From assembly GCA_003154195.1 (NCBI GenBank), contig PMCS01000032.1, positions 1 to 58,446 on the forward strand: DNA of 58,446 nt, in the 5' to 3' direction. This stretch comes from Candidatus Omnitrophota bacterium (GTDB lineage Bacteria > Omnitrophota > Gorgyraeia > Duberdicusellales > 4484-171). Position numbers and translations under genes: made by a program. This document shows, in pieces, positions 6,196 to 52,682 of the stretch; positions within the stretch are counted from its first letter, which is position 1; each line of letters begins with the position of its first letter. A model generated the notes under the pieces. It saw nothing but the letters and a program-made list of their open reading frames with translations, searched no databases and was not told the DNA's origin.

Positions 6196-6217
6196 TCCCC
6201 TTCGCTAACGCTTCAGG

Positions 6218-8085: not shown

Positions 8086-8090
8086 CCGCT

Positions 8091-12133: not shown

Positions 12134-12136
12134 CAA

Positions 12137-12197
12137 ATTATTTCGCAGGTTTCCGCGAAATAATTTGACGGATATTTTTTTGCGCAGCAAAAAAAAT
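12137..12197. repeat. Two stacked AT-rich hairpins before acyP
   Basis: AAATTATTTCGC pairs with GCGAAATAATTT, and ATATTTTTTTGC pairs with GCAAAAAAAATAT. The second stem reaches the acyP start codon, leaving no visible Shine-Dalgarno sequence, so initiation may depend on structure or coupling. Confidence 0.45.
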
Positions 12198-12470: not shown

Positions 12471-12472
12471 AT

Positions 12473-13768: not shown

Positions 13769-13854
13769 CTCCCCCAGAGGCTAGTCCACCCGGCCGCGGA
13801 CAGGCGTGATTTTCCAGCCAGGGGACAAGCATAGGGTGGGGCGAAAGATTAAAT

Positions 13855-17157
<3,303 letters not shown>

Positions 17158-17158
<1 letters not shown>

Positions 17159-17197
17159 TAAAAATAACCCGCCCGCGGGCGGGTTATTTTTATCGGC
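17158..17197 (+). terminator. Terminator after ligA with TTTATCGGC end
   Basis: A perfect 36-base palindrome (17158-17193) with a CCCGCC/GGCGGG core and flanking A and T runs, followed by CGGC. It belongs to a group of four gene-end hairpins (also 19087, 26065, 36193) whose 3' arm runs into TTTATCGGC. Confidence 0.8.
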
Positions 17198-17212
17198 GAA
17201 ACGGTTGATTTT

Positions 17213-17245
17213 TTATTTTTCGCAAAGCGAAAAATAAAAAAGGGG
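17213..17245. repeat. 15-bp hairpin, loop AAA, before the CpaF-type gene
   Basis: TTTTTTATTTTTCGC and its complement enclose AAA and end just before the GGGGGAC ribosome site of the gene at 17250. Confidence 0.5.
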
Positions 17246-17249
17246 GACT

Positions 17250-18521
17250 ATGGAGGAATTAGATTTAAAAGAAATAAAAAAAGAAATCAAAAAAATGTTG
17301 CAGGACGAAATGCTCGCGAATAAGGCGCGGCCGGATATGTCGGAAAAAAACCGCGAAAAAATCGGCGAATATATCGATAGAATTTTATACCGCCTGGCGC
17401 GTTCCAAAAGAATAAACTTAAGCGAAGACGACACAAAACGACTGAGAGAGCAGCTCATCTCGGAATTTACCGGTTATGGGATTCTTCAGCCCCTTTTGGA
17501 TGACCCGACAATCAGCGACATTATGATCAACGGCCTCAAGCAGATATGCGTTGAGCGTCAGGGCCGGCTCGAACAAACCAATATAACGTTTAGCGATGAG
17601 AACGAGATGGCTGACGTAATTCAGAAAATGCTCACCGAAAGCGGCAAGCGCCTTGACCGGTCGTCGCCTTATGTGGATTTACGCATACAAAACGGCGTCC
17701 GGGTAACCGCGGTCATTCCGCCGATATCCCCCTTAAGCCCGATCGCGTTGATACGTAAAAGAGCGAAAGGAACGTTTAGTTTTAAAGATTTAACGGAAAA
17801 GGGAACGATTACCCCCAAGGTTCTTCAATTTTTGAAATACTGCGTCATCAGCCGGCTTAATATCTTAATCGCCGGCGGCACCGGCGTAGGCAAAACCACT
17901 CTACTCAACCTGATTATAAAAGAGTTTATTCCCGAATACGCGCGCTTGGTCATAATAGAAGATACCGAAGAAATAGTCATCGATGACACCCAGCATTTTA
18001 TCAAATTATTAACCCAACCCTCAAATATCGAGGGCAAAGGTGAAATAACCCTGCAGGATTTAGTAAGGCTTTCCCTCCATTTGCGACCGGACCGGATTAT
18101 TATCGGCGAAGTCAGGGGCGCGGAAGCGTTTAACTTGCTGCAAGCGATCAATACCGGCCACGAAGGCTCAATGTGCACAATCCACGCCAACGACTGCGAA
18201 GACGCGATAAACCGCCTGGTTCTGCTGTCGCTGATGGACAACGCCAACATCCCCGACAATGTGATTAGAAGAATGGTAGCGTCGGGATTACAGCTCATCA
18301 TCCACTCGGTAAGAATGCCCGGGGGAGAACGTAAAATCTCGCAGATATCCGAACTTTTGTCCGAAGGGGACCGGATAATCGTCAAAAACATCTTCAATCT
18401 TAAACGTATTACCCGGGAAAACAAAGAGATATCGGAACTTACTCACACCGGCTATGTGCCGTCTTTCGCGGAACATTTGAAAATAATGGCGGGGATGCCG
18501 GAGGATTTCTTTACTAAATAA
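17250..18521 (+). CDS. CpaF/TadA-type secretion ATPase
   Basis: Hexameric ATPase of the type II/IV secretion superfamily, 423 residues. N-terminal helical domain with TGYGILQPLLDDPTISDIMINGLKQI; Walker A GGTGVGKTT near residue 208; Asp box IIEDTEEI; Walker B LRPDRIIIGEVRGAEA; His box TGHEGSMCTIHAND. This is closest to the Flp/Tad pilus motor. No pilin, TadB/C or secretin genes lie in the window, so the rest of the machine must be elsewhere or this ATPase serves another system. Ribosome site GGGGGAC precedes the start. Confidence 0.85.
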   Translation: MEELDLKEIKKEIKKMLQDEMLANKARPDMSEKNREKIGEYIDRILYRLARSKRINLSEDDTKRLREQLISEFTGYGILQPLLDDPTISDIMINGLKQICVERQGRLEQTNITFSDENEMADVIQKMLTESGKRLDRSSPYVDLRIQNGVRVTAVIPPISPLSPIALIRKRAKGTFSFKDLTEKGTITPKVLQFLKYCVISRLNILIAGGTGVGKTTLLNLIIKEFIPEYARLVIIEDTEEIVIDDTQHFIKLLTQPSNIEGKGEITLQDLVRLSLHLRPDRIIIGEVRGAEAFNLLQAINTGHEGSMCTIHANDCEDAINRLVLLSLMDNANIPDNVIRRMVASGLQLIIHSVRMPGGERKISQISELLSEGDRIIVKNIFNLKRITRENKEISELTHTGYVPSFAEHLKIMAGMPEDFFTK

Positions 18522-32362: not shown

Positions 32363-32413
32363 TGAAACGGAAGAACGAAGGCCCTAAGTTCAACCGCGAA
32401 AAGAGGAGCATTG

Positions 32414-33298
32414 ATGGAAGAAAGGCGAAAATTTATACGCTTGGATTCTGAGCTGAACGTCAACTATAATCCCATCGATAATGCCTCGGAAAAAAAAGAA
32501 ACAATAAGCAAAGACGTCAGCATCGGCGGAATTCGTGTAGGCCTGCCTGATAAAATATCTCCGGGGACAAGAATCCGTATGGAGATAAGCCTGCCCAACG
32601 AAATGGAAAAAATAGCAATTGTCGGCGAAGTGATATGGCAGCTGGTGCAAAAACCGGGGGGAACAATAGAGACGGGTATAAAATATATCGAAATGAACCC
32701 CCATGACCGCAATAAGCTTACCAATTACCTCGTGAACCGTTTAAGAGAAAAGGTAGATGAAGCGCAAAGGGCGCTGCCGGCGGAAAAAGATAATCAAACA
32801 GGTTTTAACGAAATATTGGAAAAAGAAATACGTTTCCCCGGAGATACCAGCAAAAACATAAGCGCCCCCGATTTTCTAATACGCGAGATAAGCCTGCCCT
32901 GGGATCAACAACGGCACTGCCATCTGCCCAAACCAATCATATTGAAATACAATGATGGTGACGGCGATGAACATGCCGAATACTCCATACGCCAATACTT
33001 AAGCGGCCAGGGGGTATGGCTTCTTGTTTCCCGCCAGATCAATCCCGGCGCCATTCTGAAAATAGAAATGGAACTACCGGGACAAATATCGCCGACCACA
33101 ATCGAAGCGGAAGCCATGAGCTGTCAAAAAATAGAGCACGCCGCGGACGCAATCAATCTATATCAAAATGTCTATCAAATAAACGCTATGTATAAAAATA
33201 TCAGCGAAACAAACCGGACAAAAATTGTCCGCTATATCTACACCTGCCGGCATGATTACATAATGCTCTGGAAGAAAAACCCTCCCGATTGGTTATAG
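32414..33298 (+). CDS. PilZ domain protein, probable c-di-GMP receptor
   Basis: 294 residues. The N-terminal PilZ domain (1-115) has both c-di-GMP binding parts: ERRKFIR (RxxxR, residues 3-9) and DVSIGGIRVGL (DxSxxG). EVIWQL and IETGIKYIEM complete the fold. The C-terminal 150 residues contain a second strand-rich part (YLSGQGVWLLVSRQINPGAILKIEMELPG) that resembles a degenerate second PilZ/YcgR-N-like module. I start at ATG 32414 after GAGGAG; TTG 32411 is adjacent. It has its own promoter. Confidence 0.8.
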   Translation: MEERRKFIRLDSELNVNYNPIDNASEKKETISKDVSIGGIRVGLPDKISPGTRIRMEISLPNEMEKIAIVGEVIWQLVQKPGGTIETGIKYIEMNPHDRNKLTNYLVNRLREKVDEAQRALPAEKDNQTGFNEILEKEIRFPGDTSKNISAPDFLIREISLPWDQQRHCHLPKPIILKYNDGDGDEHAEYSIRQYLSGQGVWLLVSRQINPGAILKIEMELPGQISPTTIEAEAMSCQKIEHAADAINLYQNVYQINAMYKNISETNRTKIVRYIYTCRHDYIMLWKKNPPDWL

Positions 33299-34915: not shown

Positions 34916-36193
34916 ATGACACGTAAGATTACAGTAGTGGCACTGGTGATGTTTTTATTTTTAGCGGCAGGCAAAGTATTTTGCGCCGGTTCGTCGGCAT
35001 TCCGCGTGGAATTGACGGACACGGAAGCCATGAGCAAAGGATTCGCCTTCGTAGGCGAAGCGAATAACCCTTCCGCGGTTTTTTATAACCCGGCCGGCCT
35101 TACCCAATTAAAAGGCGGCCAGCATCTTTCCTTAGGCACAGCTGAACTCGTTCCGCTTACGAATTACACTAACCACGCCGGTGCCGAAAGCCAGATGCGG
35201 CGCGGCGTATACACTATCCCGCATTTCTACTATGTCAATGATTTTGGCCTGAAAAAATTTGTCTTTGGCGTCGGCGTAGCCTCTCCCTGGGGTTTAAGCA
35301 CCGAGTGGGCAAAAGATAGCTTTGCCCGGTACTCCGCCACGCGCACGGATATCATCACCGACGACACAATGCTTACCGGCGCATATCAACTTACCGAAAA
35401 GATTTCTTTGGGCGCAGGGCTGGATTATTTTCGCGCCAAAATGGGCAAACAGAAAAACGTCCTGCAAACCGGCGCCGCCGACGCCGATTTTGAAATGCGC
35501 ATCAAAGACAATTTCGCGTGGGGATACCGGTTGGCATTGTTGTACGTGCCTAACGACCGGCACTCCTTCGGCATCCAATACCGCAGCCCGGTCAACTTGA
35601 AATTACGCGGCGAAACTTATTTCAACGGCTTAAGCGGCCTTTACGCGGCTATTTTCGGCGGCTCCTCCTACACCGAAGAAGCCAGTATGGAAGCGGAATT
35701 GCCCCAGGCTATTATCGCCGGTTACAGTTTCAAGCCTTCGGACAAATGGGTAATTAACTTTGACGTCGAATGGACAAATTGGGAATCAGTCGAACAGGAA
35801 TATTTGATCTACCAATACGAGACTAACGCTACGCGCTTATCGGTTTTAAACAACGGCAACCCGGCTTCCCGCGATTGGAACAATGCGGTCACCCTGGCCC
35901 TGGGCGGCCAGTACAAGGTCAACGATAAACTGCGCCTGCGTTCAGGGTTTTATTTCAAAGAAAAAGCTGTTCCCCAGGCGAACTTCGAACCGAGCCTGCC
36001 GGACGCCAAGTCGTACGGCATTACCGCGGGTTTCGGCTATTCCTTCACCAAAAACGTGACCCTGGATATGGGCTACGCGTTTCAGCAATACGCGACAAGA
36101 AAAATCAACAACAACAACGTTTCCGGCACCATCGACGGCACCTATCGCAGCTGCGCGAGCATATACGGGACAAACTTACGCTTTGATTTCTAA
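34916..36193 (+). CDS. FadL/OmpP1-type outer membrane transporter
   Basis: 425 residues. A signal peptide (VVALVMFLFLAAGKVFCAG) is followed by the FadL hatch start SSAFRVELTDTEAMSKGFAFVGEANNPSAVFYNPAGLTQLKGG. Then alternate beta strands of a 14-strand barrel, ending GTNLRFDF with a terminal Phe as usual for outer membrane proteins. FadL proteins let hydrophobic molecules such as fatty acids into the cell. It has a strong ribosome site (GGGAGGA), its own promoter and a terminator. It could feed the nearby fatty-acyl genes, which is inference. Confidence 0.88.
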   Translation: MTRKITVVALVMFLFLAAGKVFCAGSSAFRVELTDTEAMSKGFAFVGEANNPSAVFYNPAGLTQLKGGQHLSLGTAELVPLTNYTNHAGAESQMRRGVYTIPHFYYVNDFGLKKFVFGVGVASPWGLSTEWAKDSFARYSATRTDIITDDTMLTGAYQLTEKISLGAGLDYFRAKMGKQKNVLQTGAADADFEMRIKDNFAWGYRLALLYVPNDRHSFGIQYRSPVNLKLRGETYFNGLSGLYAAIFGGSSYTEEASMEAELPQAIIAGYSFKPSDKWVINFDVEWTNWESVEQEYLIYQYETNATRLSVLNNGNPASRDWNNAVTLALGGQYKVNDKLRLRSGFYFKEKAVPQANFEPSLPDAKSYGITAGFGYSFTKNVTLDMGYAFQQYATRKINNNNVSGTIDGTYRSCASIYGTNLRFDF

Positions 36194-36442: not shown

Positions 36443-36913
36443 ATGGATAACTCTAAAACCGTTTGGGATATCAATAAAATACAGGAGATCCTCCCGCACC
36501 GCTATCCTTTTATTTTCGTCGACCGGGTCATCTCCCTCGACGAAAATAAAAAACAGATAACCTGCCTTAAGAACCTTACCATCAACGATTATTTTTTCGC
36601 CGGGCATTTTCCCGATAATCCCGTTATGCCGGGAGTCCTCACCATCGAAGCCCTGGCGCAAGCGGCGATTTTACTATACGCCGCCCTGAAACCTCAAATC
36701 GCGGCGCAAAAACCCGTTTACTACCTGGGCAAAGTGGAAATAAAATTTTCCCGGCCGGCAAAGCCGGGAGACTGCCTTATCCTTGAGGTAACCGGAGAAA
36801 AAATATTAGGCACCGCCGGCATCGTCGCGGTCCGCGCCATGATCGACGGCGAAACCATCGCGGAAGGAAAAATAAGCTTTGGCGTCAAAATCGGCCTAAG
36901 GCCGACGGCCTGA
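36443..36913 (+). CDS. fabZ: 3-hydroxyacyl-ACP dehydratase FabZ
   Basis: Dehydrates 3-hydroxyacyl-ACP in fatty-acid elongation; 156 residues. LPHRYPFIFVDRV (about 16-28), the catalytic His in FFAGHFPDNPVMPGVL and the Glu in TIEALAQAA (about 66-74) are all present. The following gene carries two FabZ-like domains, so this copy may be a dedicated partner, not only the housekeeping enzyme. Before it, 36297-36409 holds an open stretch (KGKVGYTGKTPQSKKKIKK) with no start, perhaps a decayed gene. Confidence 0.92.
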   Translation: MDNSKTVWDINKIQEILPHRYPFIFVDRVISLDENKKQITCLKNLTINDYFFAGHFPDNPVMPGVLTIEALAQAAILLYAALKPQIAAQKPVYYLGKVEIKFSRPAKPGDCLILEVTGEKILGTAGIVAVRAMIDGETIAEGKISFGVKIGLRPTA

Positions 36914-37059: not shown

Positions 37060-38937
37060 ATGACCAAGCGGATTTTACTGATCGACAATGATCCCGCAAT
37101 GATACAAAGCCTGGGAACGCTTTTGACAAAATCAGGGTATCTCGTCGCGGAAGCCAAAAACGGAAAGGAGGCGCTTAAGATTGCCGGGGAGCAGGACTTT
37201 GATTTAATTATTGCCGGCGTCAAAACCCCGGGGATGGACGGCGTCAATATATTTCAAAAAATCAGAGAAAAATATCTGCAACTCGATAAAAAGGTACCGC
37301 CGGAAATCATCGTTACCGGCGATGCCGAAAATGATACCTATCGCAAGATGGCCGACCTGGGAGTCGTAGACTATTTACATAAACCGTTTGAAAACGCAAG
37401 GTTCATCCAGGTGATCGAAAGATACTTAGACGGCCCGCCGCTGTGGAAAAGGAAGCATCCCCGCGTTAAGATAGAAATTCCCGCGCAATTAAAATTAGCC
37501 GATTCGGCCCCAGGCGCGATCCAGACTTTTGATTTAAGCGAAGGCGGCGCCGGAGTTATTTCAAAAATACCGCTTCCGGTAAACTCATTGGCACAATTTT
37601 CCGCAAACCTGTCAGGTTATCAGCCTGCCCTTAAAGGCGAGGCGCGGGTAGTCTGGTCGCGGCCGGCCGCCGGCAAAAACACATTTACCTGCGGGCTATG
37701 CTTTACCGCTATCGATATGAATATTTTAAAAGGCATTTTAGGCGAAATCAATAAGCGGCAATTTGAGGATTTCTTCCCGGCGCCGGCGCCCGATTTCCTG
37801 AAAGACGATTTTCAAAAGAATTACCTTTTTGAGCGCTTCAATCAGAAACAGATCATGAAAATCATTGATTTCCAGCCTCCTTTCTTGAGAATAGACCGGG
37901 TAGCGGTTTTAGGCTCCGACCGGCAGGATATGCTTCAAATCCGCGGTATCGCCGCCGGGACTTTAACGCTTGATGATACCGCGGGGCATTACAACAATAC
38001 TCTTTTTTTGGCAATGTATGGACTGCTGGTTGCTTCGGCGGCACAGATCTACTTAGCGATGTTGTTTCCGGCTACGGCGCCGCAAGTTATAAAGTTAGAC
38101 TGGATAAAACCGTCCCGCGACCGGATTTTATGGAAACCGGATGTTAAGGGAAGCCGTTTTTTTATCGAGACGCAGATCGTCAATAAAAAATTGCAGATGC
38201 TCGTCGCCAATACCCGGATGTTTTCCGACCAATATTTTATGGGAGAGATCAAAGGGCTGAAATTGATTTTAACCGCTAAAGATTCTATCCAACAGGCGAA
38301 GATTTTGCCGGCCGGAGAAAAGCTACCGGTTTTAAAGAGCGCCGGGGATGATAAAGAGGCCGGGGAAGGGCTTGATAATTTTTTTGGGGTAATCGTGCCT
38401 GAGGAGATAAAAAAGAATTATCAAGATAAAAAATGCCGCAAAAAACTTAACCAACAGGAAATCAGGGAAACGATTGATTTTGCGCCCCCGTTTTTAAAAA
38501 TCGACCAGCTGGCAGTTTTTGAAGAGGAAGAAAACAGTACCCGTGAAAGCGTAAGTTTAGGCATGGGGCGGTTAACGGCCAAAGATACTGTCGGCCATTA
38601 TAACAATACGGTTTTTTTAGCCCTATGCGCGCAAATAATGAGCTCGGCGACGGCAATACATTTAGCGGTTTTATTTCCCGGCAAAGCGCCGGAGGTGATT
38701 GCGGCAAAAGGCGTAAAGCCTTTCGAGCGGAGCCTTTGGAAACCCGGAAAAGACGGGGCAGCGTTTTGGGTCGAGACTAAAGTTATTAAGAAAAAAATGC
38801 ATTTAGTAATAATCAAAGCCCAGATATCCTTCACCCATCTTCCTTACGGGTATGCCGACGAGGCCAAAGTGTTCTTAATTCCCAAACATCTGATTGCGCA
38901 AGCGCCCTCGTTGTTTTCGAGAGATAAAATTAAATGA
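37060..38937 (+). CDS. Receiver-PilZ protein fused to two FabZ-like hotdog domains
   Basis: 625 residues, four domains. Residues 1-125: receiver fold (RILLIDNDPAM, KPF), but the phospho-acceptor position is Gly (IIAGVKTPGMDG, about G53), so it is probably not phosphorylated. About 126-235: PilZ with KRKHPRVKI and DLSEGGAG, fit for c-di-GMP. About 265-415 and 468-615: two mutually similar domains, each starting IDF(Q/A)PPFL(R/K)IDR-like and having (A/V)GHYNNT 40 residues later. These resemble FabZ hotdogs (PHRYPF...DRV, GHFPDNP). The FabZ catalytic Glu is not evident, so acyl binding may be more likely than dehydration. It starts 146 bases after fabZ and overlaps the next gene by four. Confidence 0.72.
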   Translation: MTKRILLIDNDPAMIQSLGTLLTKSGYLVAEAKNGKEALKIAGEQDFDLIIAGVKTPGMDGVNIFQKIREKYLQLDKKVPPEIIVTGDAENDTYRKMADLGVVDYLHKPFENARFIQVIERYLDGPPLWKRKHPRVKIEIPAQLKLADSAPGAIQTFDLSEGGAGVISKIPLPVNSLAQFSANLSGYQPALKGEARVVWSRPAAGKNTFTCGLCFTAIDMNILKGILGEINKRQFEDFFPAPAPDFLKDDFQKNYLFERFNQKQIMKIIDFQPPFLRIDRVAVLGSDRQDMLQIRGIAAGTLTLDDTAGHYNNTLFLAMYGLLVASAAQIYLAMLFPATAPQVIKLDWIKPSRDRILWKPDVKGSRFFIETQIVNKKLQMLVANTRMFSDQYFMGEIKGLKLILTAKDSIQQAKILPAGEKLPVLKSAGDDKEAGEGLDNFFGVIVPEEIKKNYQDKKCRKKLNQQEIRETIDFAPPFLKIDQLAVFEEEENSTRESVSLGMGRLTAKDTVGHYNNTVFLALCAQIMSSATAIHLAVLFPGKAPEVIAAKGVKPFERSLWKPGKDGAAFWVETKVIKKKMHLVIIKAQISFTHLPYGYADEAKVFLIPKHLIAQAPSLFSRDKIK

Positions 38938-39983
38938 AAAATAAAATTGAGTTGATCAGGGCAATCCGAAAGGTAGGACTTTATAATTTATTGAAGGTAA
39001 AGAAAATAAAAAAAATAGCCGGTAACATTATTGGCGGCTTCTTTCTTACTCGGGTAATAAGCACTTTGCTTAACATAGATTTTTTTGCCGGCTTTTCCGG
39101 AAATAGTAGTATAAATACTCATTTATTCTGTAAAGAAAATAATCTTGACGAGAAAGTGCTTTGCGCGCTCTGCGATTATTTATCTTCCCTGGGGATATTA
39201 AAAAAAAATAAATCAGAATATTATTTAACCGCCAAGGGAAAATTTATTTTAGAGATGGGCAGCGGTTTATTCAATATCGTGTATTCCTTCGAAGATATTT
39301 TTCATAATTTAGAACCTATTTTAAAAAAAGAAAGAACGGCGGAGAGAGATATAAATAAGTTTCTTTATTTTGAGGCTAAAGGCACCGGCGAAGCGGCTAA
39401 ATTATTGGTTTTTCCCATAATCATCGATATCATTGAGAAAAAAAAGTTCAAAAGAATCTTTGATATTGGATGCGGTTCGGCGGCGTTTTTAATTGAGTTA
39501 TGCAAAAATGTTTCCGGAACCATCGGCTATGGAGTAGACCTTTCGCGGAAAGCCGTGCTTCACGGCCGCGAAGAACTGATTAAATATAACCTGGAAAATA
39601 GAATTAAATTATTCGAAGGGAATATAATACACGATTTAGACTCATTCGCGGAAAAAATCAGCGACGCGGAGATAATAACCGCCTCTTTCGTATTGCATGA
39701 ATTATTTTTTGAAAATAAAGAACAGATCATAAACTTTTTAGTGAAGTTTCGGCGCCGGTTTGAAAATAAATGCCTGTTGGTTTGTGAAAATATCGAACAA
39801 TCGCTTGATGAATTACGCAAAGATCCCGGGCTTTATTCCGAAGTACAGTTAGCGCACCGGCTTGTCGGGGAACAACAAATGACAAGAAAAGATTGGCATA
39901 CGATATTTATAAAAAGCGGTTTCAAAAAAATAAAGGAAAGGTATCTTAGCTTTGCTAGAATAAGTATTTTTATTCTTCATTAA
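38934..39983 (+). CDS. Winged-helix plus class I methyltransferase (O-methyltransferase type)
   Basis: 349 residues. The N-terminal half has a dimerisation/winged-helix look (LDEKVLCALCDYLSSLGILKKNKSEYYLTAKGKFIL) as in polyketide and small-molecule O-methyltransferases. The SAM fold follows: motif I IFDIGCGSAAFLIELC (about 178-193), acidic GYGVDLSRKAV, and TASFVLHELFF. The substrate is unknown; such enzymes often methylate secondary metabolites or quinone-like lipids. It overlaps the REC-PilZ gene by four bases (ATGA) and precedes the oxidoreductase by 18. Confidence 0.75.
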   Translation: MKNKIELIRAIRKVGLYNLLKVKKIKKIAGNIIGGFFLTRVISTLLNIDFFAGFSGNSSINTHLFCKENNLDEKVLCALCDYLSSLGILKKNKSEYYLTAKGKFILEMGSGLFNIVYSFEDIFHNLEPILKKERTAERDINKFLYFEAKGTGEAAKLLVFPIIIDIIEKKKFKRIFDIGCGSAAFLIELCKNVSGTIGYGVDLSRKAVLHGREELIKYNLENRIKLFEGNIIHDLDSFAEKISDAEIITASFVLHELFFENKEQIINFLVKFRRRFENKCLLVCENIEQSLDELRKDPGLYSEVQLAHRLVGEQQMTRKDWHTIFIKSGFKKIKERYLSFARISIFILH

Positions 39984-40001: not shown

Positions 40002-41279
40002 ATGAAGAAGGTTATAGAAACAGACATAGCAATTGTTGGTTCGGGAACCGCCGGCGCTACTTTAGCAAAAGAGCTATCTAAGAAGGGTAGAAAAGTAGTT
40101 TTGCTTGAAAAAGGCAAGAGAGAAACCAGGCTGGGCGGGATGGACGACGCTCTAAGGTTCTACGAAAACCACGGTTTCCGAAAATCAAGAGAAGGAATCC
40201 CTCTATACGGAACCAGCATGGTCGGCGGCACCTCCGTAGTCGCTTCGGGAAATGCCGTCCGATGCTTACAAAAAGAATTCCTTGATTTGGGAATCGATTT
40301 GGAAAACCAATTCATCGAGGCGGAAAAAGAACTCAATGCCCGGCCTTTGCCGGATCGATGCATTTCCCCGGGAGCAAAAAAAATTCTCGAAGCGGCGCAA
40401 GCGTTGGGCCTTGAACCAAAACGCATCCCTAAGTTTATCGATCCGGAAAAATGCGTCGCCTGCGGAAATTGCGTCCTGGGCTGTAAGTACGGCGCGAAAT
40501 GGTCGGCAGTCGATTACGTTGACGAAGCGGTTAAGAACGGTGCCTTATTATTAACCCAGGCCAAAGCGATTAGAGTCCTGGTTTCGAATAGAAAAACTCG
40601 GGGGATAGAAGCGATTGGGCCCGAAGGGCTTATGGAAATTATCAGCGATATTGTGATTATCGCCGCCGGCGGCATCCAAGCGCCGATAATCCTTCAAAAG
40701 TCGGGGATTTCAAATGCGGGTAAAAAAATGTTTTGCGACTCCTTCATGACTACCTATGGAGTTACAAAAAATATCAATCAAACCAAAGGAGTAAATGCGC
40801 CGGGTTACATTCTAAGACCAGATAAGTTTATTACCTTTCCCTTTGTAGATCCGCCGGTACAGTTTTTACTATATAATAGTTGGGAAGCTTTGTTTGGGGG
40901 GCTCCCTCGAGAAAGAACCTTGGGAATGATGACTAAGATCGCCGACGAATCCATCGGGCAAGTAGATATTGACGGTAAGATCACAAAAACAATAAGTCCC
41001 AAAGATAAAGAAAAATTAAACGAGGGGATTGCCTTAGTAAAAGAAATTTTTATAAAAGCCGGGGCTGAACCAAAGTCTATTTTTACCATCAAACAAATCC
41101 GAGGCCCTCATCCCGGCGGGACCGCCGCCGTCGGAGAAGTAGTTAATAATAATCTGGAAACAGAAATAAAAAATCTTTTTGTCTGCGATAACAGCGTATT
41201 GCCTAAAGCACCGGGGTTACCGCCGATCCTGACGATTATCGCTCTCAGTAAGTGGCTGGCAAAAAAAATCATCAACTAA
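40002..41279 (+). CDS. GMC-type FAD oxidoreductase with a Cys cluster
   Basis: 425 residues. FAD-binding TDIAIVGSGTAGATLAKELSKKG, then YGTSMVGGTSVVASGNAVRC. The C-terminal GMC signature RGPHPGGTAAVGEVV and LFVCDNSVLPKAPGLPPILTIIALSKWLA follows. A CVACGNCVLGCKYGAKW segment near residues 147-163 has four spaced Cys as in iron-sulfur clusters, an addition found in some anaerobe GMC-like dehydrogenases. It is likely an alcohol, aldehyde or lipid dehydrogenase; carotenoid-type roles are possible. AGGGAG supplies the ribosome site. It lies 13 bases before a kinase gene. Confidence 0.75.
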   Translation: MKKVIETDIAIVGSGTAGATLAKELSKKGRKVVLLEKGKRETRLGGMDDALRFYENHGFRKSREGIPLYGTSMVGGTSVVASGNAVRCLQKEFLDLGIDLENQFIEAEKELNARPLPDRCISPGAKKILEAAQALGLEPKRIPKFIDPEKCVACGNCVLGCKYGAKWSAVDYVDEAVKNGALLLTQAKAIRVLVSNRKTRGIEAIGPEGLMEIISDIVIIAAGGIQAPIILQKSGISNAGKKMFCDSFMTTYGVTKNINQTKGVNAPGYILRPDKFITFPFVDPPVQFLLYNSWEALFGGLPRERTLGMMTKIADESIGQVDIDGKITKTISPKDKEKLNEGIALVKEIFIKAGAEPKSIFTIKQIRGPHPGGTAAVGEVVNNNLETEIKNLFVCDNSVLPKAPGLPPILTIIALSKWLAKKIIN

Positions 41280-41292
41280 CTAATTCAATAAT

Positions 41293-43434
41293 ATGGATAC
41301 CTTTGCTTTTTCCGGATTATTAGTTTTGCTATCGAGCCTATTTTTTGGTTTTTTTGTTTTTTTAAATAATACAAAAAATAGAGCGAATCGAATATGGGGG
41401 CTTTTTTCTCTCGGGGTTGCCTCTTGGGGCTTAGGCGCTTTTATAGCCGGACAGATACCGGAGTCCGGGAGAGCATCGGCGCTTTTATGGTGGCGCATAA
41501 CTTATTTTGGTATAATTTTTATTCCGGTCTTTTTTTATCATTTTGTTTATCTTTGGTTAGGCCTCAAAAGAAAAATATTTTTATATCTATTTTATTTATG
41601 GGGTTTCTTTTACGCTATATTCGAATGGGCCCCTTGGGGAGATTCATTCATCGGCTACGATAATATGAAGTTAGTCTTTTCTTCTTTTTATGTAGTCGGC
41701 CCTAAGCCCCTATTCAATTTATTTGTTTTATGTTGGTTTAGCATTGTTTCCTATAGCCATTTCGAACTATACAAAGCCTTCCAAAAATCAGTCGGGTTGA
41801 AGAAAAACCAAATTAAATATTTTTTTCTTGGCGCGGCAATAGGATTTTTAGGGGGCGGTTTTAGTTTTTCGATGTGTTTTGGTGCCAATATATACCCCTA
41901 TTTTAACTTTGCCGTTCCTTTGTACCCGGCGATTATGTCTTACGCCATTGTTAAATACCGCCTCATGGACATCAAGGTTGCCATCACCCGCACCGGCATT
42001 GCCATGGTGATTTATCTTTTTGTTTTGGGGGTGCCGTTTTATGTCGGCTACATGACTCATAATTGGCCGATGGCGATGCTGTTGATGGCAGGGTTAGCGA
42101 CCATCGGGCCGGCGATCCAGCGCCGGATGCAGAGAAAAGCCGACGATATTTTGCTGGCGGAACAGCGCCGGTATCAGCAAATACTCTTACAGGCAGCCAG
42201 CGGGATGGCCAGAGAGCATGATCTTGACCGGCTGGTGAGGCTGATTGTTTATCTCCTTCAGCGCACGATTAAAATCCATTTTGCCGTATTCTTTTTGGAT
42301 AATGGAGAGCAGGGATTCTACGAGCTTGTCGCGATAAGGGGCCGGCGCCGGTTTGAGCCGACCTTTTCTTACCAACACCCCTTGGTCCAATTCCTTAAAG
42401 CGCAGGAAGAACCGCTGTATCTGGGAGAAATCCCGGCAGATGCCCGCATTGGGGCGAACCTCCCCGAAGATACCGGCGTCATCGTTCCGATCCACTCGGA
42501 AAAAAAGCTCGACGGCTTCCTGTTTTTGGGCGAAAAACTTAACCGGGATATTTACTCCCGCGACGATATGAATATTTTCTCCATCCTTTCCCGGCAAGCC
42601 GGCCTGGCCGTCCAGAACTGCCGGTTTTTGCGTGAATTTAAAAAAACTCAGGAGCGCATTTTCGCCGCGGAGAAAATGGCGTCCATAGGCGGCATGTCCG
42701 AAGGCGTCGCCCACCAGGTGGGTAACCGGCTCAACCAGTTTTCCTCCGCCGCCAGCGAAATAAAAATGATGCTCGAATATCTCGCTAAAAATCCCGGCGG
42801 CGGGCCGGAGCTCAGCCTCCAACAATTTTACCAGAACCTTAATGAAACCGCCGCTTCGATCAGCGACAATGTCAAGCGAACCGACGAAATGATCAAGGGA
42901 ATTTTGAATTTCGCCCGGGTGGAGGGAAACGAAACCTTTTTCAGCCGCTTTTCCCTGAAAGAAGCGGTCGGCTTGACCCTGATCCCCCTGAGGACAAAAC
43001 ACCGCCTCCGCGATGATTTTCCCTTAACGATTGACCTCGGCGAGGACGATACCATTTACGGCGTGCTCAGCCAGATCGTCGAAACTATTTACAATATCTG
43101 CGATAACGCCTACGAAGCCTGCCAGGAACGCCGGGACCTGTTTCCCAATTGGGATGAAAAACTCGCTTATAACCCGATCATCAAATTGCAGCTGCGCCAG
43201 TTTCCCGACAAAAGTGTCATCGAGATCTCCGATAACGGTATCGGTATCAAAGAAGGGGACGCCCCTAAAATCTTCGCGCCTTTTTTTACCACCAAATCCA
43301 GCTACCGCACCGGCACCGGCATCGGCGTCTACGTCGTCCGGCGCATCGTCGAAGAAAACCACAAGGGCACCATCCACTTCAAATCCCAATACCTGCAGGG
43401 AACAAAATTCATCATCGAACTTCCCAGGAAGTAA
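41293..43434 (+). CDS. 7TM-GAF sensor histidine kinase (paralogue 1)
   Basis: 713 residues. N-terminal seven or eight membrane helices (about 5-255) of the histidine-kinase 7TM type. A GAF domain follows (about 295-445, from LLQAASGMAREHDLDRL). The phospho-acceptor region reads GMSEGVAHQVGNRLN (His about 472), with Gln where HE is usual. The ATPase domain has N box YNICDNAYEACQER, G1 DNGIGIKEGD, F box FAPFFTTKSS and G2 GTGIGVYVVRRIV. The gene at 52707 has the same length and architecture. No intact response regulator is adjacent; the upstream fusion protein has only a degenerate receiver. It is the last gene of the fabZ cluster. Confidence 0.85.
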   Translation: MDTFAFSGLLVLLSSLFFGFFVFLNNTKNRANRIWGLFSLGVASWGLGAFIAGQIPESGRASALLWWRITYFGIIFIPVFFYHFVYLWLGLKRKIFLYLFYLWGFFYAIFEWAPWGDSFIGYDNMKLVFSSFYVVGPKPLFNLFVLCWFSIVSYSHFELYKAFQKSVGLKKNQIKYFFLGAAIGFLGGGFSFSMCFGANIYPYFNFAVPLYPAIMSYAIVKYRLMDIKVAITRTGIAMVIYLFVLGVPFYVGYMTHNWPMAMLLMAGLATIGPAIQRRMQRKADDILLAEQRRYQQILLQAASGMAREHDLDRLVRLIVYLLQRTIKIHFAVFFLDNGEQGFYELVAIRGRRRFEPTFSYQHPLVQFLKAQEEPLYLGEIPADARIGANLPEDTGVIVPIHSEKKLDGFLFLGEKLNRDIYSRDDMNIFSILSRQAGLAVQNCRFLREFKKTQERIFAAEKMASIGGMSEGVAHQVGNRLNQFSSAASEIKMMLEYLAKNPGGGPELSLQQFYQNLNETAASISDNVKRTDEMIKGILNFARVEGNETFFSRFSLKEAVGLTLIPLRTKHRLRDDFPLTIDLGEDDTIYGVLSQIVETIYNICDNAYEACQERRDLFPNWDEKLAYNPIIKLQLRQFPDKSVIEISDNGIGIKEGDAPKIFAPFFTTKSSYRTGTGIGVYVVRRIVEENHKGTIHFKSQYLQGTKFIIELPRK

Positions 43435-47667: not shown

Positions 47668-47786
47668 TTAAGTAGTGTCCTGCGATAGAGGAAGGGGAAT
47701 ACATGTAAAACGTTAGCTATTACAATATAATTATTTTGGGTCAACGCGTAACAACTCTACCTGGGAACACGAGGGTTCATCTTAGT

Positions 47787-48227
47787 ATGTACACTATCAA
47801 TATAACAACTCATGTCGACGCTTCGGCCAAAAAGTTGATGAAGATATGGCGCTATCCTCATAAACTTTGCGCGCATACCAAAATGATAAATAGCTTAACC
47901 GTAATCAAACGCAACAAAGAAAATGTTGTAACCGAATGGAACGTAAATGTCGACGGCTTGAATTTAACCTGGCAACAGAAAGATACCCTCGACTTGAAGA
48001 ATAATAGAGTATCGTTCGAACAAGAGAATGGCGTCTTCGCCCAATATTATGGTTGCTGGGAAATAATCCCCGCCGGGGCGCGGCAATGTACCTTAAAATT
48101 ACGCGTAAATATGGACTGGGGCATTCCGGTCCTCAAACCTTACGTCGGCAGCATCTTAAAAAAGAAATCGGTTCTTATCTTTAAAAGGTTTCTTGACATC
48201 ATCAAGAAAGCAGCAAGCCATGGATAA
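47787..48227 (+). CDS. SRPBCC/START-like lipid-binding protein
   Basis: 146 residues of the coenzyme Q-binding/polyketide cyclase group of the SRPBCC fold. MYTINITTHVDASAKKLMKIWRYP and the WEIIPAGARQCTLKLRVNMDWGIPVLKP strand, then a long C-terminal helix (KKKSVLIFKRFLDIIKKAA), are typical. These proteins bind hydrophobic ligands in a deep pocket. The gene overlaps the next by eight bases, so it is likely a partner of the acyl-ACP-reductase-like protein. I start at ATG 47787; the open frame from 47736 is longer but unlike the family. Confidence 0.7.
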   Translation: MYTINITTHVDASAKKLMKIWRYPHKLCAHTKMINSLTVIKRNKENVVTEWNVNVDGLNLTWQQKDTLDLKNNRVSFEQENGVFAQYYGCWEIIPAGARQCTLKLRVNMDWGIPVLKPYVGSILKKKSVLIFKRFLDIIKKAASHG

Positions 48228-49314
48228 CAAAATAGGGATAGTCATCCATCCCATCGACCGCGAGCTCCTCTATGATTACGAACCGGGCATGAAACGGTTC
48301 GATGCCCCGACCACCCAGAAAATACTGGAATGGATGTCGCCCTTCAAAGCCGCGAATATCGAAGGGATAAAATCCAAAGCCACCCACGAAACCCTGAATG
48401 CCGAGTTGATCATGTGCCCGCTGTTGATCGAGCAGATGGCATCGAACAGCCCGCGAAAAGTTTTTAATAAAGTGGCCAAAACAGTTCGTTTTGCCGAAAA
48501 AAGCGGCTGCCGGATTATCGCCCTCGTCGCCTATACCGCGTTAGTCGGCGAACGGGGCATGAAATTGCAGGAACTGGTCAAAACACCGCTGACTACCGGC
48601 AACCACCTGACTCTCGCCGTGATGCCGGAAACGATATTGCGGGCGATAAAACTCCTGAATTACAAATCACAGCGCCTCAACATGCTTCTTCTGGGCGCTA
48701 ACCCGCTGATCTACATCCTGGTGCATCATCTCGGACACCATCTCCACCAATCCTGTCTTTATTATGCCTCCCAGGATAAAATCAAAGCCTACCATTCTCT
48801 TTTGTCAGCCGCGTTAAAAAAACGGGTAAAAATATTACCGCGTGACCCGGCCGGCGCCATGCGCGACGCCGACATCATCGTCAACGCCACCAGCCGCCTG
48901 CCCGCGTCATTCGACGAACGTTTGCTGAAGAGCGGGGCGATTGTTTTTGACGCTTCCTACCCGCGCCGCATCCAGATCACGCGCAAAGATATTTTATTGA
49001 TCGACGGCATCACCATGCGGCCGCCGGGCCGGCCTAAGTTTAATTTTAATTTCGGCCTGCCGGACGGCCTGTGTTTTCCCTGCATGGCCGAGCCGATGGT
49101 CCTCGCCTTCGAGAACAAATATGAATCTTATTCGCTGGGCAAGGATATCTCTTACGATAAAAGCGAGAGCATTTTCCATATGGCAAAAAAACACGGCTTC
49201 AGCCTGGGCCCCCTGACGTCCTACGAAAAGATCATCCCGGAGGAAAAATTTGCCGATGTGATCAAACATATCAAACCTAAAAAGAAAGTATTCAGTTTTT
49301 TATTGACAAAGTAA
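48220..49314 (+). CDS. Acyl-ACP reductase-like protein, degenerate NADPH site
   Basis: 364 residues. Similar to cyanobacterial long-chain acyl-ACP reductase (AAR): HPID start, AELIMCPLLIEQM (cf. GKYVESCFLPEML), AEKSGCRIIALVAYTALVGE, TTGNHLT. The acyl-binding Cys is in FPCMAEPMVLAFEN (about 287), followed by ESYSLG. The Rossmann motif at about 153 reads LLLGANPLIYILVHHL without GxGxxG, so NADPH binding may be lost. A second paralogue at 50045 keeps it. It overlaps the SRPBCC gene by eight bases. A catalytic or pseudo-enzyme role cannot be decided here. Confidence 0.68.
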   Translation: MDNKIGIVIHPIDRELLYDYEPGMKRFDAPTTQKILEWMSPFKAANIEGIKSKATHETLNAELIMCPLLIEQMASNSPRKVFNKVAKTVRFAEKSGCRIIALVAYTALVGERGMKLQELVKTPLTTGNHLTLAVMPETILRAIKLLNYKSQRLNMLLLGANPLIYILVHHLGHHLHQSCLYYASQDKIKAYHSLLSAALKKRVKILPRDPAGAMRDADIIVNATSRLPASFDERLLKSGAIVFDASYPRRIQITRKDILLIDGITMRPPGRPKFNFNFGLPDGLCFPCMAEPMVLAFENKYESYSLGKDISYDKSESIFHMAKKHGFSLGPLTSYEKIIPEEKFADVIKHIKPKKKVFSFLLTK

Positions 49315-49348
49315 TACTTTTAGTATATACTTTAAGTATATTAAATTT
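49303..49348 (+). promoter_or_regulatory. Strong promoter with two palindromic operator-like sites
   Basis: TTGACA (49303), 17 bases, TATACT (49326-49331). TACTTTTAGTATA and TACTTTAAGTATA form two 13-base direct repeats, the second holding the perfect palindrome TACTTTAAGTA. They overlap the -10, fitting autoregulation by the antitoxin. Confidence 0.65.
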
Positions 49349-49418
49349 ATCACAGTCCGCGGATGAATACGTTAAAATATTTCAACCACAAAGTGATTTT
49401 GTTATAGGGAGAAAAACA

Positions 49419-49658
49419 ATGAGCAAGGCGATATCTCTAAAAATCAATGATATGATTTTTAAGGAGACTGAAGAAATTACCCACAAAACGCATACTCCCA
49501 GAAATTCCTATATTAATGAAGCAATCAAGTTCTACAACCGGTTAATAAAAAGAAAACTCCTGAAAAAGCGCTATCAAAAAGAATCGGCACTGGTAGCAGG
49601 ATATTCCTTAGAGATTAACCGGGAATTCCAGGATATTGAAAATGAAAACGCCCTATGA
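49419..49658 (+). CDS. Ribbon-helix-helix antitoxin
   Basis: 79 residues. A short strand MSKAISLKIND with helix-rich EETEEITHKTHTPRNSYINEAIKFYNRL fits the RHH DNA-binding fold; the acidic C-terminus ending EFQDIENENAL would wrap the toxin. It shares ATGA with the toxin gene and has its own promoter with operator-like palindromes. GGGAG is at the right distance. The call rests mostly on context. Confidence 0.75.
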   Translation: MSKAISLKINDMIFKETEEITHKTHTPRNSYINEAIKFYNRLIKRKLLKKRYQKESALVAGYSLEINREFQDIENENAL

Positions 49659-49993
49659 CCATAAAAAAATGGAATGTTTATGTGGCTGATTTAAACCCTC
49701 GCCACAAGCCGGAACCGGGCAAGATACGGCCGGTGGTCGTCGTCCAAACCAATTTATTAAACAACACCCACCCAACCACTATAACCTGCCCAATTTCTAC
49801 GAACATTAAAAAAGAGGCGATTCTCTTACGGGTGCACTTAAAAAAAAATGAAGCCGGCCTAAAAGAAGCGTCCGACATTTTAGTAGACCAAGTCAGGGCA
49901 ATCGACAATAGCCGGTTTTGCAAGCATCTGGGAATTCTGGAAGATAATTCTATCGAAGAATTGCGTAAATGTTTATCTTTGATTTTAGATTAA
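49655..49993 (+). CDS. MazF/PemK-type toxin
   Basis: 112 residues, family length. VYVADLNPRHKPEPGKIRPVVVVQT (residues 8-32) is the MazF/PemK signature with the RPVVV core; TITCPIST and ILVDQVRAIDNSRF supply the remaining active-site strand. Such toxins cleave RNA at short sequences and are held by their antitoxin. The overlap with the antitoxin gene is four bases. The module sits between the two acyl-ACP-reductase-like genes, which looks like an insertion. Confidence 0.88.
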   Translation: MTIKKWNVYVADLNPRHKPEPGKIRPVVVVQTNLLNNTHPTTITCPISTNIKKEAILLRVHLKKNEAGLKEASDILVDQVRAIDNSRFCKHLGILEDNSIEELRKCLSLILD

Positions 49994-49997
49994 AATT

Positions 49998-50039
49998 ATA
50001 AAAATCAAGCTAATCGCCCCGGCGTACAAGCCTGAGTAG
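49998..50039 (+). pseudogene. Remnant of the radical SAM gene start
   Basis: ATA followed by codons for KIKLIAPAYKPE and TAG. The B12 radical SAM gene at 51186 starts MKIKLIAPARKPEW, so 12 codons match with one residue change, and ATA replaces ATG. It is either a decayed duplicate or a recombination scar. Confidence 0.6.
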
Positions 50040-50044
50040 GCATA

Positions 50045-51052
50045 ATGAATAGTATGGATAAATTCGGCTTTATCGTGCACCCCATCGACATAAAACAGCT
50101 AAAAGAATCCTGGCCGGCCTTAAAATTCCTGCCGCCTGTTTTTATCCGTTTGTTATTAAAATATTGCCCGCCGTTTATGGCCTCTAAAATTAAAGGCGTC
50201 CGCTCTCCCACCGGCAGAGAAATCGAAGGGTATTTCATCGCCTGTCCGCTTTTACCTGAGCAAATGGTAAAGCTGGATGAAAATTTTGTCGTGAAAAAAA
50301 TTATCCAGGCTTGCCGGATTGCGGAAAAATCAGGTGCCAGGATAATCGGCCTGGGCGGGTATACTTCGGTAGTGGGGGATAAAGGCTTGACCATCGCTAA
50401 AAATTTGTCTATACCGGTAACGACCGGTAATTCCTTGACCGCGTGGGCGGTTATCGAAGCAATTTTGCAAACCGCGAAGAAACAAAATAAGGACCTCGCA
50501 AAATCCACCCTGGCGATCATCGGCGCCAGCGGCTCTATCGGTTCGCTATGCGCCCGGAAACTTTCGCGTTATTTTTCCCACATCGTTATTACCGCCCGCC
50601 ACCGGGATAAACTGGAAGGGCTGAAACAGGAAATAAGCAAAGACAATCCAGCCAACATTACCATCGAGGACAATGTGCATGCGGCAGTAAAACTCGCGGA
50701 TATTTTAGTCATAACCACCAGCTCGCCGCAAGCCTTGCTCAACACGGCTGAATTGAAATCAGGCGCGATTGTCTGTGACGTATCAATCCCCAAAAACATT
50801 TACGGCAAGGATAATCCGCGAAGCGATGTCACGATAATTCCCGGCGGGTTAATAAAATTACCGGGAAACGTAGGCCTCGGCGTAAATATTTTTTTACCGC
50901 CCAATGTCGTTTATGGCTGCGTTGCCGAAACGATGCTTTTGACTTTAGAAGGTTTATTTGAAAGTTATTCGCTGGGTGATAAAATACCCTTACAACAGTT
51001 AGACCGGATTCACGAATTAGCTGTTAAGCACGGCCTGACGGTGTGGATGTAG
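50045..51052 (+). CDS. Acyl-ACP reductase-like protein
   Basis: 335 residues, close to cyanobacterial AAR (about 340). FGFIVHPID, EGYFIACPLLPEQM, IIGLGGYTSVVGDKG and VTTGNSLTAW match the acyl-binding half. The Rossmann half has LAIIGASGSIGSLCARKL (about 155-172) with GxSGSIG intact. The catalytic Cys is in VYGCVAETMLLTLEG (about 291), and FESYSLGDK follows. AAR reduces acyl-ACP to fatty aldehyde with NADPH. No aldehyde-deformylating oxygenase is near, so the aldehyde would go elsewhere. ATG 50045 has AGG upstream; ATG 50054 matches the paralogue start. Confidence 0.75.
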   Translation: MNSMDKFGFIVHPIDIKQLKESWPALKFLPPVFIRLLLKYCPPFMASKIKGVRSPTGREIEGYFIACPLLPEQMVKLDENFVVKKIIQACRIAEKSGARIIGLGGYTSVVGDKGLTIAKNLSIPVTTGNSLTAWAVIEAILQTAKKQNKDLAKSTLAIIGASGSIGSLCARKLSRYFSHIVITARHRDKLEGLKQEISKDNPANITIEDNVHAAVKLADILVITTSSPQALLNTAELKSGAIVCDVSIPKNIYGKDNPRSDVTIIPGGLIKLPGNVGLGVNIFLPPNVVYGCVAETMLLTLEGLFESYSLGDKIPLQQLDRIHELAVKHGLTVWM

Positions 51053-51086
51053 TTTGCCGGAAGGCATGATTTTGCTGAGTTTCAAA

Positions 51087-51124
51087 TCCAGCACTAATTT
51101 TGCCATGGCAAAATTAGTGCTGGA
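51087..51124. repeat. Perfect 38-base palindrome
   Basis: TCCAGCACTAATTTTGCC and its complement meet at CCATGG with no loop. It directly precedes the hairpin element copy at 51122. Confidence 0.6.
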
Positions 51125-51183
51125 TAATTCGACTACGGCCTCAATCTGCTCCTTACAGGCTTGATTTCGGCCAAGTCTCATTA
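51122..51183 (+). repeat. Hairpin element, copy 6
   Basis: GGATAATTCGACTAC, stem GGCC-TC-AATC / GATT-TC-GGCC, inner TGCTCCTTACAGGC, AAGTCTCATTA. The end is two bases before the radical SAM start. The TC/TC internal mismatch is the same as in copy 1 while the pairs differ. Confidence 0.65.
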
Positions 51184-51185
51184 AT

Positions 51186-52682
51186 ATGAAAATAAAACTG
51201 ATCGCCCCGGCGCGCAAACCGGAATGGGGAGAAAGTTTCTGGGATTTAAAGACGCTTTGTAAACTCACCGGCAAAAAAGCCGGCGGCGCGCCCCTGGCTT
51301 TGCCTACTCTTGCCGCGCTAACCCCTTCTGATGTCGAAGTTGTTCTCACCGACGAAAACGTCGAACCGATTGATTTTGAGGAAAAAGTAGATTTAATCGG
51401 CATTACCGGCATGACCTGCGTCATCCCGCGCTCTTACGAAATCGCCGACGAATACCGCAAGCGCGGAGTTAAAGTGGTGATGGGCGGAATCCACGTTTCC
51501 ATGCTTCCGGAGGAAGCTATCCAGCATTGCGACGCGGTAGCAATCGGTGAAGCCGAAGGATTCTGGGAAAAAATAGTCCGTGACGCGCAAAAAAATCAAT
51601 TGCAAAAATTATACCGCGGCGACAGTTTCCCTGATTTAACCAATTCGCCGATACCGCGATGGGATTTGCTGAAAAATGATAAGTATACTTTTTTTGTTAT
51701 GCAAACCGGCCGGGGCTGCCCTTATGATTGCGATTTTTGCTCGGTGAAAATATTCAACGGCCGGCAATACCGACATAAAAAAATTGAGAATGTTATAAAT
51801 GAAGTAAAATTGTTGAAAACCATCGACAACCGGAAATGGATTTTTTTTAATGATGACAATATACTTGCCATTCCCGAATACGCTAAAAACCTTTTTAAAG
51901 CGTTATCCGCCTTTAAAAATAATGTCTATTGGTGCCAGGGTTCGTTAAATCGTTTGGATGACGATGAAATCCTGGAGTTAATGAATAAAAGCGGCTGCAA
52001 AGTCATATTTATAGGGTTTGAGTCGATTTCAAAACAAACAATCCAATCTTACAACAAAACTGTCGTCAATAATATTGACAAATATAACAAGGTGATAGAT
52101 AAAGTCCATTCCCATGGCATCAGCGTTTTTGGTTCTTTCATAACCGGCAGCGATAGCGACGATAAAAACGTTTTTGACGATACGGTTAATTTCATAATGA
52201 ATACTAATATTGCCTTTTCGATGATTAATATTCTCGTTGCCCTCCCCGGAACCAAATTGCGATCGAGTCTGGAAGATGCCAATCGAATATTGACGAATGA
52301 CTGGCAGAAGTATAATGCGGAGTTTGTTACTTTTAAGCCAAAATCCCTGTCGACGGAGGAGTTGCACGAAGGAAGAGAAAAAATCCTACGCGATATCTAT
52401 TCTTACAAGAATTTATATAAACGTTTAAAATCCCTATGGAGCCGGAACGTTTTCGTCCGTGACAAATCAAATTGTTCCAACCTTTTTACAAAAGGACGTA
52501 TTCTTTTATCGCTCAAAGGCTTTTTGAGCAAAGATATAAACAAGATATTTTTTATACTAAAAAGCCTCTGGAATAAAAATGTGACATCGGTATCAACAAT
52601 TTTGATAGCTTTATCGTATCACGATTATTCCCTGAGAGAAAAAAACAGAAAGATCATTAAAAACTTAAGCAAAATTATATAG
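51186..52682 (+). CDS. B12-binding radical SAM protein (HpnP/DUF4070-like)
   Basis: 498 residues. N-terminal cobalamin-binding region (about 1-135, DLIGITGMTC, VVMGGIHVSMLPEEA). The radical SAM core has TGRGCPYDCDFCSV near 175-187 with CxxxCxxC, and GFESISKQTI. The C-terminal FKPKSLSTEELHEGREKILRDIY resembles DUF4070 of the hopanoid C2 methylase group. The C-terminal 80 residues are basic and helical. Such enzymes methylate or rearrange lipids and tetrapyrroles. Lying next to acyl-ACP-reductase-like genes it is a candidate for lipid modification. The start is ATG 51186. Confidence 0.78.
   Translation: MKIKLIAPARKPEWGESFWDLKTLCKLTGKKAGGAPLALPTLAALTPSDVEVVLTDENVEPIDFEEKVDLIGITGMTCVIPRSYEIADEYRKRGVKVVMGGIHVSMLPEEAIQHCDAVAIGEAEGFWEKIVRDAQKNQLQKLYRGDSFPDLTNSPIPRWDLLKNDKYTFFVMQTGRGCPYDCDFCSVKIFNGRQYRHKKIENVINEVKLLKTIDNRKWIFFNDDNILAIPEYAKNLFKALSAFKNNVYWCQGSLNRLDDDEILELMNKSGCKVIFIGFESISKQTIQSYNKTVVNNIDKYNKVIDKVHSHGISVFGSFITGSDSDDKNVFDDTVNFIMNTNIAFSMINILVALPGTKLRSSLEDANRILTNDWQKYNAEFVTFKPKSLSTEELHEGREKILRDIYSYKNLYKRLKSLWSRNVFVRDKSNCSNLFTKGRILLSLKGFLSKDINKIFFILKSLWNKNVTSVSTILIALSYHDYSLREKNRKIIKNLSKII

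Follow-up and report, generated by a model that had tools for sequence, protein, structure and literature searches.

This locus raises the question of what two C-terminal repeats contribute to a chain that begins with a receiver and a PilZ domain, and whether such a chain is an inherited design or a fusion in decay. The protein is encoded in a 58,446-nucleotide stretch of DNA from a Candidatus Omnitrophota bacterium, a phylum known mostly from environmental genomes; the whole stretch is referred to here as the window. The protein and its parts (HD, hotdog domain) are as follows.

37060-38937, forward strand: REC-PilZ-hotdog-hotdog protein, 625 residues from an ATG start (open reading frame list and Pfam)
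37060-37431, forward strand: degenerate receiver, Asp replaced by G53, acidic pair with N10, T86 and K108 retained (PF00072)
37447-37722, forward strand: PilZ domain, R131xxxR135 and D158xSxxG163 (PF07238, E = 6.4e-11)
37786-38295, forward strand: hotdog domain D1, D306-T-A-G-H310-Y-N312-N-T, with S326, E370 and K376 invariant (AF2, Foldseek, profile comparison, alignment)
38362-38910, forward strand: hotdog domain D2, D509-T-V-G-H513-Y-N515-N-T, with S529 (43% identity to D1, alignment, tree)

Pfam recognises two domains in the protein, Response_reg at residues 5-119 (E = 1.7e-23) and PilZ at residues 130-221, and in the C-terminal half beyond residue 221 neither Pfam nor NCBIfam returns a match. 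A preliminary description of this DNA had read the first domain as a degenerate receiver with glycine at the phospho-acceptor site, and this is confirmed: the phospho-acceptor Asp expected from PF00072 is absent, its position being occupied by G53 (DFDLIIAGVKTP), and motif comparison shows that the acidic cluster is changed too (IDND). The corresponding stretch reads DFDLIISDIRMS and DYDLIISDVRMP in relatives, with the Asp present in the proteins of loci L049 and L050. The PilZ domain is of the c-di-GMP type, as had also been proposed, with R131-KHP-R135 and D158-L-S-E-G-G163 corresponding to the RxxxR and [D/N]xSxxG motifs, both of which are retained in all four PilZ-hotdog proteins; c-di-GMP binding by this domain is predicted on the strength of its sequence. 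The AF2 model of the full-length protein is poor (pLDDT 65, pTM 0.44) and too weak for PilZ-hotdog contacts or domain placement to be read from it.

The repeats occupy residues ~243-412 and ~438-616, are 43% identical over 121 residues (E = 4e-39) and each contain a GHYNNT motif, at 309 and 512. None of the ten hotdog domains assembled for this family matches PF07977 even at E <= 10, the Pfam gathering score not being reached, and a PDB sequence search gives no match for D1-D2 or for the family profile. An AF2 model of D1 computed from five sequences (pLDDT 77.9, pTM 0.76) displays an antiparallel sheet that wraps a long central helix (79-101 of the segment). When this model is compared with the PDB by Foldseek, FabZ is the top match (E = 4e-6) and all 50 top matches are FabZ or FabA. 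We also compared a family profile of the ten members with a FabZ profile made from 14 Omnitrophota FabZ domains; hhalign aligned the two over 114 columns (score 41.7, probability 85%, E = 5.8e-6), and in a shuffle control the ordered columns scored 41.1, the best of 60 column shuffles 19.9 and the reversed columns 14.0. In agreement with a FabZ assignment, BLAST of the repeats against the window's own FabZ gives a weak match (E = 2e-5, a single comparison), and LpxC-FabZ fusions are matched in their FabZ portion (E about 1e-4). The predicted structure shows D1 to belong to the FabZ/FabA branch of the hotdog fold with a FabZ-like topology, and the 43% identity to D1 shows D2 to be a putative hotdog domain as well. 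The two FabZ-like domains first proposed with their GHYNNT motif are now backed by a model, a Foldseek search and a profile comparison controlled by shuffling.

Residue conservation was read from an alignment of the ten domains, which includes D1, D2 and the stand-alone copies and whose members are 33-48% identical to D1. Invariant throughout (D1 numbering) are PPFL, D306, T307, G309, H310, Y311, N312, L317, A318, S326, E370 and K376, so that the DTxGHYN motif and the serine at +16 are present in ten of ten. H310/H513 occupies the position of the FabZ catalytic His in every domain and is paired by hhalign with the FabZ GHF. There is no counterpart of the FabZ catalytic Glu/Asp, since from +4 onwards the helix is free of acidic residues in all ten; some domains carry Glu or Asp at +3 (GHYNE/GHYND), and the partner of the FabZ Glu is S326 by BLAST or L317 by hhalign, the helix register being uncertain and neither residue acidic. 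Retention of the His with loss of the Glu, noted earlier for the two repeats, holds in all ten domains. With FabZ/FabA (PF07977), their best structural and profile match, the repeats share the hotdog fold, the PPFL..D start, the GH motif with its catalytic His and the K/RP..G...E block; they differ in lacking the catalytic Glu/Asp and the PVMPG loop, in being invisible to Pfam, and in being fused to PilZ/REC and partnered by FadL and a 7TM kinase.

Two other identities were considered and rejected. The motif DxxGHxNN had suggested the 4HBT/YbgC acyl-CoA thioesterases (PF13279), alongside which the plant FatA/FatB enzymes are named. D306/D509 lies four residues before the His, with Gly at -1 and [FY]L at +6/+7, and so reproduces in ten of ten domains the YbgC spacing D-x2-G-x6-[FY]-L; the YbgC-type proteins compared carry DxxGVVYYANYL, and in YbgC the Asp at the D-x2-G position is catalytic. 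The His here sits at the FabZ position, however, and the hhalign score against PF13279 is noise (16.6), which leaves a local likeness of the active site. The FcoT thioesterases (Rv0098; PF10862), suggested by a GHFN motif, share GH[FY]N and a Ser at +16, but their profile comparison is likewise noise (score 20.0, probability 1.6%), PF10862 has no match in the host genome, and FcoT does not appear in the Foldseek top 50. Because the pocket holds a different set of conserved residues it is not simply that of a dead FabZ, and because the FabZ Glu is missing and the 4HBT/YbgC and FcoT profiles are unmatched no reaction can be assigned. Acyl binding by the hotdog domains is predicted from the modelled fold. 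The repeats are a previously undescribed hotdog family, a relative of a fatty-acid enzyme found inside a known kind of system.

Carriers of the hotdog domain were found in eight genomes, all of them Omnitrophota in the collections searched. Scanning the GTDB r220 contigs with the single D1-D2 sequence gave no relatives and an alignment was needed, with which three loci were found. Among 384 genomes of the host class there were seven clear cases, including the window genome, and an eighth row that is marginal (E = 5e-4); a phylum-wide draw of 384 genomes added one more genome, G463, with a contig identical to L049. The plasmids searched contained no hotdog relatives. The architectures are these.

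G463/L049 and G096/L050: REC-PilZ-HD, acceptor Asp intact
Window: REC(Gly)-PilZ-HD-HD
G344: PilZ-HD-HD, without REC
G281, G095, G167 and G357: stand-alone HD, 196-212 residues

A search for the same architecture elsewhere, as the preliminary description had advised, therefore recovers related REC-PilZ-HD and PilZ-HD-HD fusions, and REC-PilZ-HD-HD itself in the window only. REC-PilZ proteins are already known; like them the window protein has REC followed by PilZ, and unlike them it continues into a C-terminal hotdog. In the literature searched we found neither a PilZ-hotdog link nor a REC-PilZ protein with a C-terminal hotdog, so that the domain order can still be called undescribed. In the tree, the window D2 groups with the D2 of G344 (support 99/98) and the window D1 with the G344 D1 (91/92), and the single-hotdog fusions join the D1s (87/91). 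As D1 and D2 each group with their G344 counterpart, the second copy was probably gained once. It is the two tandem proteins, from the window and G344, whose receiver is broken or missing, and by their sequences the double-hotdog lineage seems to have dropped phospho-control. Since the receiver is intact in the single-hotdog relatives its degeneracy in the window protein is secondary, and the duplicated, receiver-dead window version is a derived form. Judged by its relatives in other genomes, the design is real and inherited.

The genes around the fusion place it in a lipid-related setting, as listed here.

34916-36193, forward strand: FadL/TodX outer-membrane channel (PF03349, E = 1.4e-65), a conserved partner
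36443-36913, forward strand: stand-alone FabZ, catalytic His and Glu intact (TIGR01750, E = 3.9e-45)
38934-39983, forward strand: winged-helix SAM methyltransferase, overlapping the hotdog gene by 4 bp (Pfam, NCBIfam)
40002-41279, forward strand: GMC oxidoreductase with a 4Fe-4S motif (Pfam), 73% identical to the GMC oxidoreductase of the G216 operon
41293-43434, forward strand: HisKA_7TM-GAF-histidine kinase (PF16927, GAF, HATPase_c), a conserved partner
52707-54848, forward strand: second HisKA_7TM-GAF-histidine kinase, 52% identical to the first

Proximity to fabZ, 146 bp upstream on the same strand, led the preliminary description to suggest that fatty-acyl dehydration or binding could be under c-di-GMP control. 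A functional partnership with fabZ is not supported, since fabZ adjoins the hotdog gene in the window only and is absent beside the other hotdog genes. A genome search gives three FabA-family regions, this fabZ among them; the best-scoring region lies in a 441-residue open reading frame on contig C12, probably an LpxC-FabZ fusion. What is conserved is the HisKA_7TM-GAF-histidine kinase, downstream of the hotdog gene in all eight loci and the next gene in seven; the spacing is 20-43 bp in six of seven loci tested (search coordinates), and in L049 the kinase is directly next. In the window it lies three genes on, 2.4 kb away, with the methyltransferase and the GMC oxidoreductase between. These partner kinases measure about 690-720 residues, two being cut by a contig end, and they are the top scorers across the 384 genomes, in a search whose alignment included the same kinases as rows. 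Four of the eight loci (window, G095, G344 and G357) have FadL upstream, a stand-alone receiver follows the kinase in G095, G281 and G344, and the G095 operon adds a GAF-HD-GYP protein. The host genome has no HisKA_7TM proteins besides the two encoded in this window. It also encodes nine GGDEF proteins, which together with the GAF-HD-GYP protein of G095 argue that c-di-GMP is a live signal. Upstream of the FadL gene, at 32411-33298, lies a 295-residue protein with two PilZ-type stretches (Pfam).

A second lipid-related region, at 47736-52682, comprises a START-like protein, two AcACP_reductase/PigE-like proteins (48193 and 50045) and a B12-binding radical SAM protein, followed by the second 7TM kinase. 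START is fused to a reductase in L112, and a similar radical SAM protein stands beside a 7TM kinase in L117; by these parallels the region is also a recurring lipid island. Inside it, at 49419-49993, two small overlapping genes that by eye resemble ribbon-helix-helix and MazF/PemK proteins form a probable toxin-antitoxin pair, and a MazF-like gene similar to the window's occurs at L062:930-1271.

The kinase family extends well beyond the hotdog loci, with members in 227 of the 384 genomes of the class at E <= 1e-30. A frequent neighbour is a SAM methyltransferase (PilZ-fused, REC-PilZ-fused or stand-alone), found in 62 of the 384, and at least 31 of 77 methyltransferase matches lie within 1 kb of a listed kinase. 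In G216 and G344, which belong to one genus, a common locus reads FadL / PilZ-X / kinase / REC, where X stands for a methyltransferase in the former and for two hotdogs in the latter; FadL is 67% and the downstream REC 82% identical between them, the PilZ only 28%. By these identities the two are shown to be an orthologous locus in which PilZ-hotdog-hotdog has been exchanged with PilZ-methyltransferase. The G216 operon contains homologues of the window's GMC oxidoreductase (73%) and kinase (52%). An alignment search finds no PilZ-type methyltransferase in the window genome, whose own winged-helix methyltransferase is a different protein and is 32% identical to P0007, the neighbour of a 7TM kinase in another genome. 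Hotdog and methyltransferase genes occur together in one genome only, numbers too small for a claim of exclusion.

Further PilZ- and REC-PilZ-methyltransferase fusions lie at L114:2868-4316, L119:3810-5195, L121:6337-7707 and L111:5737-7479, with FadL, a 7TM-GAF kinase or both alongside; Pfam recognises nothing but PilZ in P0003 and P0004. A REC-FabF (beta-ketoacyl-ACP synthase II) fusion, P0008, stands directly beside a 7TM-GAF kinase (L112:10339-11949, reverse strand). The L117 island of G038 (4925-17510) resembles a type II polyketide/fatty-acid cluster linked to kinases: it holds FabZ, a FabG-like and two FabF-like proteins, a thioester reductase, a CrtI-like oxidoreductase, receivers, a PilZ-methyltransferase and 7TM kinases. 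The window protein belongs to a broader group of acyl/lipid enzymes that are fused to PilZ or REC and lie beside 7TM kinases, and the fatty-acyl theme of the preliminary description is supported.

An operon of methyltransferase, multi-TM kinase and receiver, seen here in the related PilZ-methyltransferase operons (the window has the winged-helix enzyme), recalls the Ralstonia quorum-sensing operon phcBSRQ, of order MT-HK-RR-RR (PMC8578825). In both, the gene of a lipid-modifying enzyme is followed by a multi-TM kinase and receiver proteins; here, however, it is a hotdog and not a methyltransferase that is PilZ-fused, and FadL and c-di-GMP components are present. A plasmid of Paraburkholderia graminis carries a homologue of the methyltransferase (27.8% identity, E = 1e-20). 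In its operon (L123:5476-8633) the methyltransferase, which has an N-terminal domain, is followed by a membrane histidine kinase and two response regulators. The order is also MT-HK-RR-RR, a likeness of gene order and not membership.

Our preferred reading, which we hold at even chances, is that the window protein may be the c-di-GMP-gated, acyl-thioester-handling module of a two-component system for fatty-acid-derived signalling. FadL would carry a lipid signal or substrate across the outer membrane, the 7TM kinase would be the receptor of that signal, and the ancestral REC-PilZ-hotdog protein would be the response regulator of the kinase; if so, the acyl-thioester chemistry or binding of the hotdog would have been set by phosphorylation and c-di-GMP jointly. 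Duplication of the hotdog in the window lineage probably produced a double-hotdog pseudo-dimer within a single chain, and loss of the phospho-acceptor would leave c-di-GMP as the likely main input. The output protein itself would act on acyl thioesters, in the cytoplasm. Counting against this reading, the hotdog stands alone, without PilZ or REC, in four of the eight loci.

It is also a serious possibility, though short of an even chance, that the repeats are a non-catalytic acyl sensor whose FapR-like pocket binds acyl-CoA/ACP or free lipid and reports fatty-acid supply to the PilZ/kinase system. The loss of the catalytic Glu in all ten domains fits such a sensor, as does the regulatory character of the coupling to REC, PilZ, FadL and kinase, and FapR is an accepted non-catalytic hotdog regulator and a precedent for a hotdog in signal transduction (PMC516016), although FapR is a malonyl-CoA-controlled HTH-hotdog DNA-binding protein whereas the window protein has REC and PilZ and no HTH found by Pfam. 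Invariance of DTxGHYN and S(+16) at only 33-48% identity to D1, by contrast, resembles an active site, and the operon slot tends to hold enzymes, namely a methyltransferase in related genomes and REC-FabF in a related cluster. The preliminary description had thought the retained His and lost Glu would suit an acyl sensor; those residues are as described, but a sensor is not favoured over an enzyme. For the acyl-thioester-handling module, the invariant Asp(-4)/His(0)/Asn(+2) set without the FabZ Glu makes hydrolysis of acyl-ACP/CoA, or a related reaction, somewhat likelier than a purely sensory pocket.

We consider it unlikely that the protein is an enzyme dedicated to biosynthesis, producing a structural lipid or a secondary metabolite together with FabZ, the methyltransferase, the GMC oxidoreductase and the two acyl-ACP-reductase-like proteins downstream; on that view no lipid signal would be sensed, and PilZ and REC would do no more than tune the output. 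The START-like, AcACP_reductase/PigE-like and B12-radical-SAM proteins at 47.7-52.7 kb would suit it, as would the FabZ, FabF, FabG-like and thioester-reductase genes beside 7TM kinases in related islands, but at G095, G344 and G357 the loci hold FadL, hotdog and kinase, plus REC or HD-GYP, and no such biosynthetic set. Decay of the gene, of which the duplicated domains and the degenerate receiver (acceptor Asp and one acidic residue lost) would be signs, is very improbable: the PilZ motifs are intact, neither hotdog copy has lost an invariant residue, and the tandem recurs in a distant genome from a different family, whose D1 and D2 each cluster with the matching copy.

Beyond this protein, we suggest only tentatively that these loci form an Omnitrophota lipid-signalling operon family in which PilZ and/or REC is joined to an enzyme (hotdog, methyltransferase or FabF) that makes or turns over an acyl signal. 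The second messenger and the phosphorelay would then act directly on the enzyme and not on transcription, and the hotdog would represent a new family of acyl-thioesterases or lyases whose active site is D/H/N. To our knowledge no lipid signal is known in Omnitrophota. If the c-di-GMP-gated module is correct, the window protein would be the first case, in the literature searched, of a c-di-GMP receptor fused directly to a fold of the fatty-acid-synthesis type; it would suggest post-translational control of acyl metabolism by c-di-GMP and would be a sign that Omnitrophota use lipid signalling. The intact single-hotdog homologues, 430-440 residues long and with the receiver beside its kinase, look soluble and could be expressed and assayed directly.
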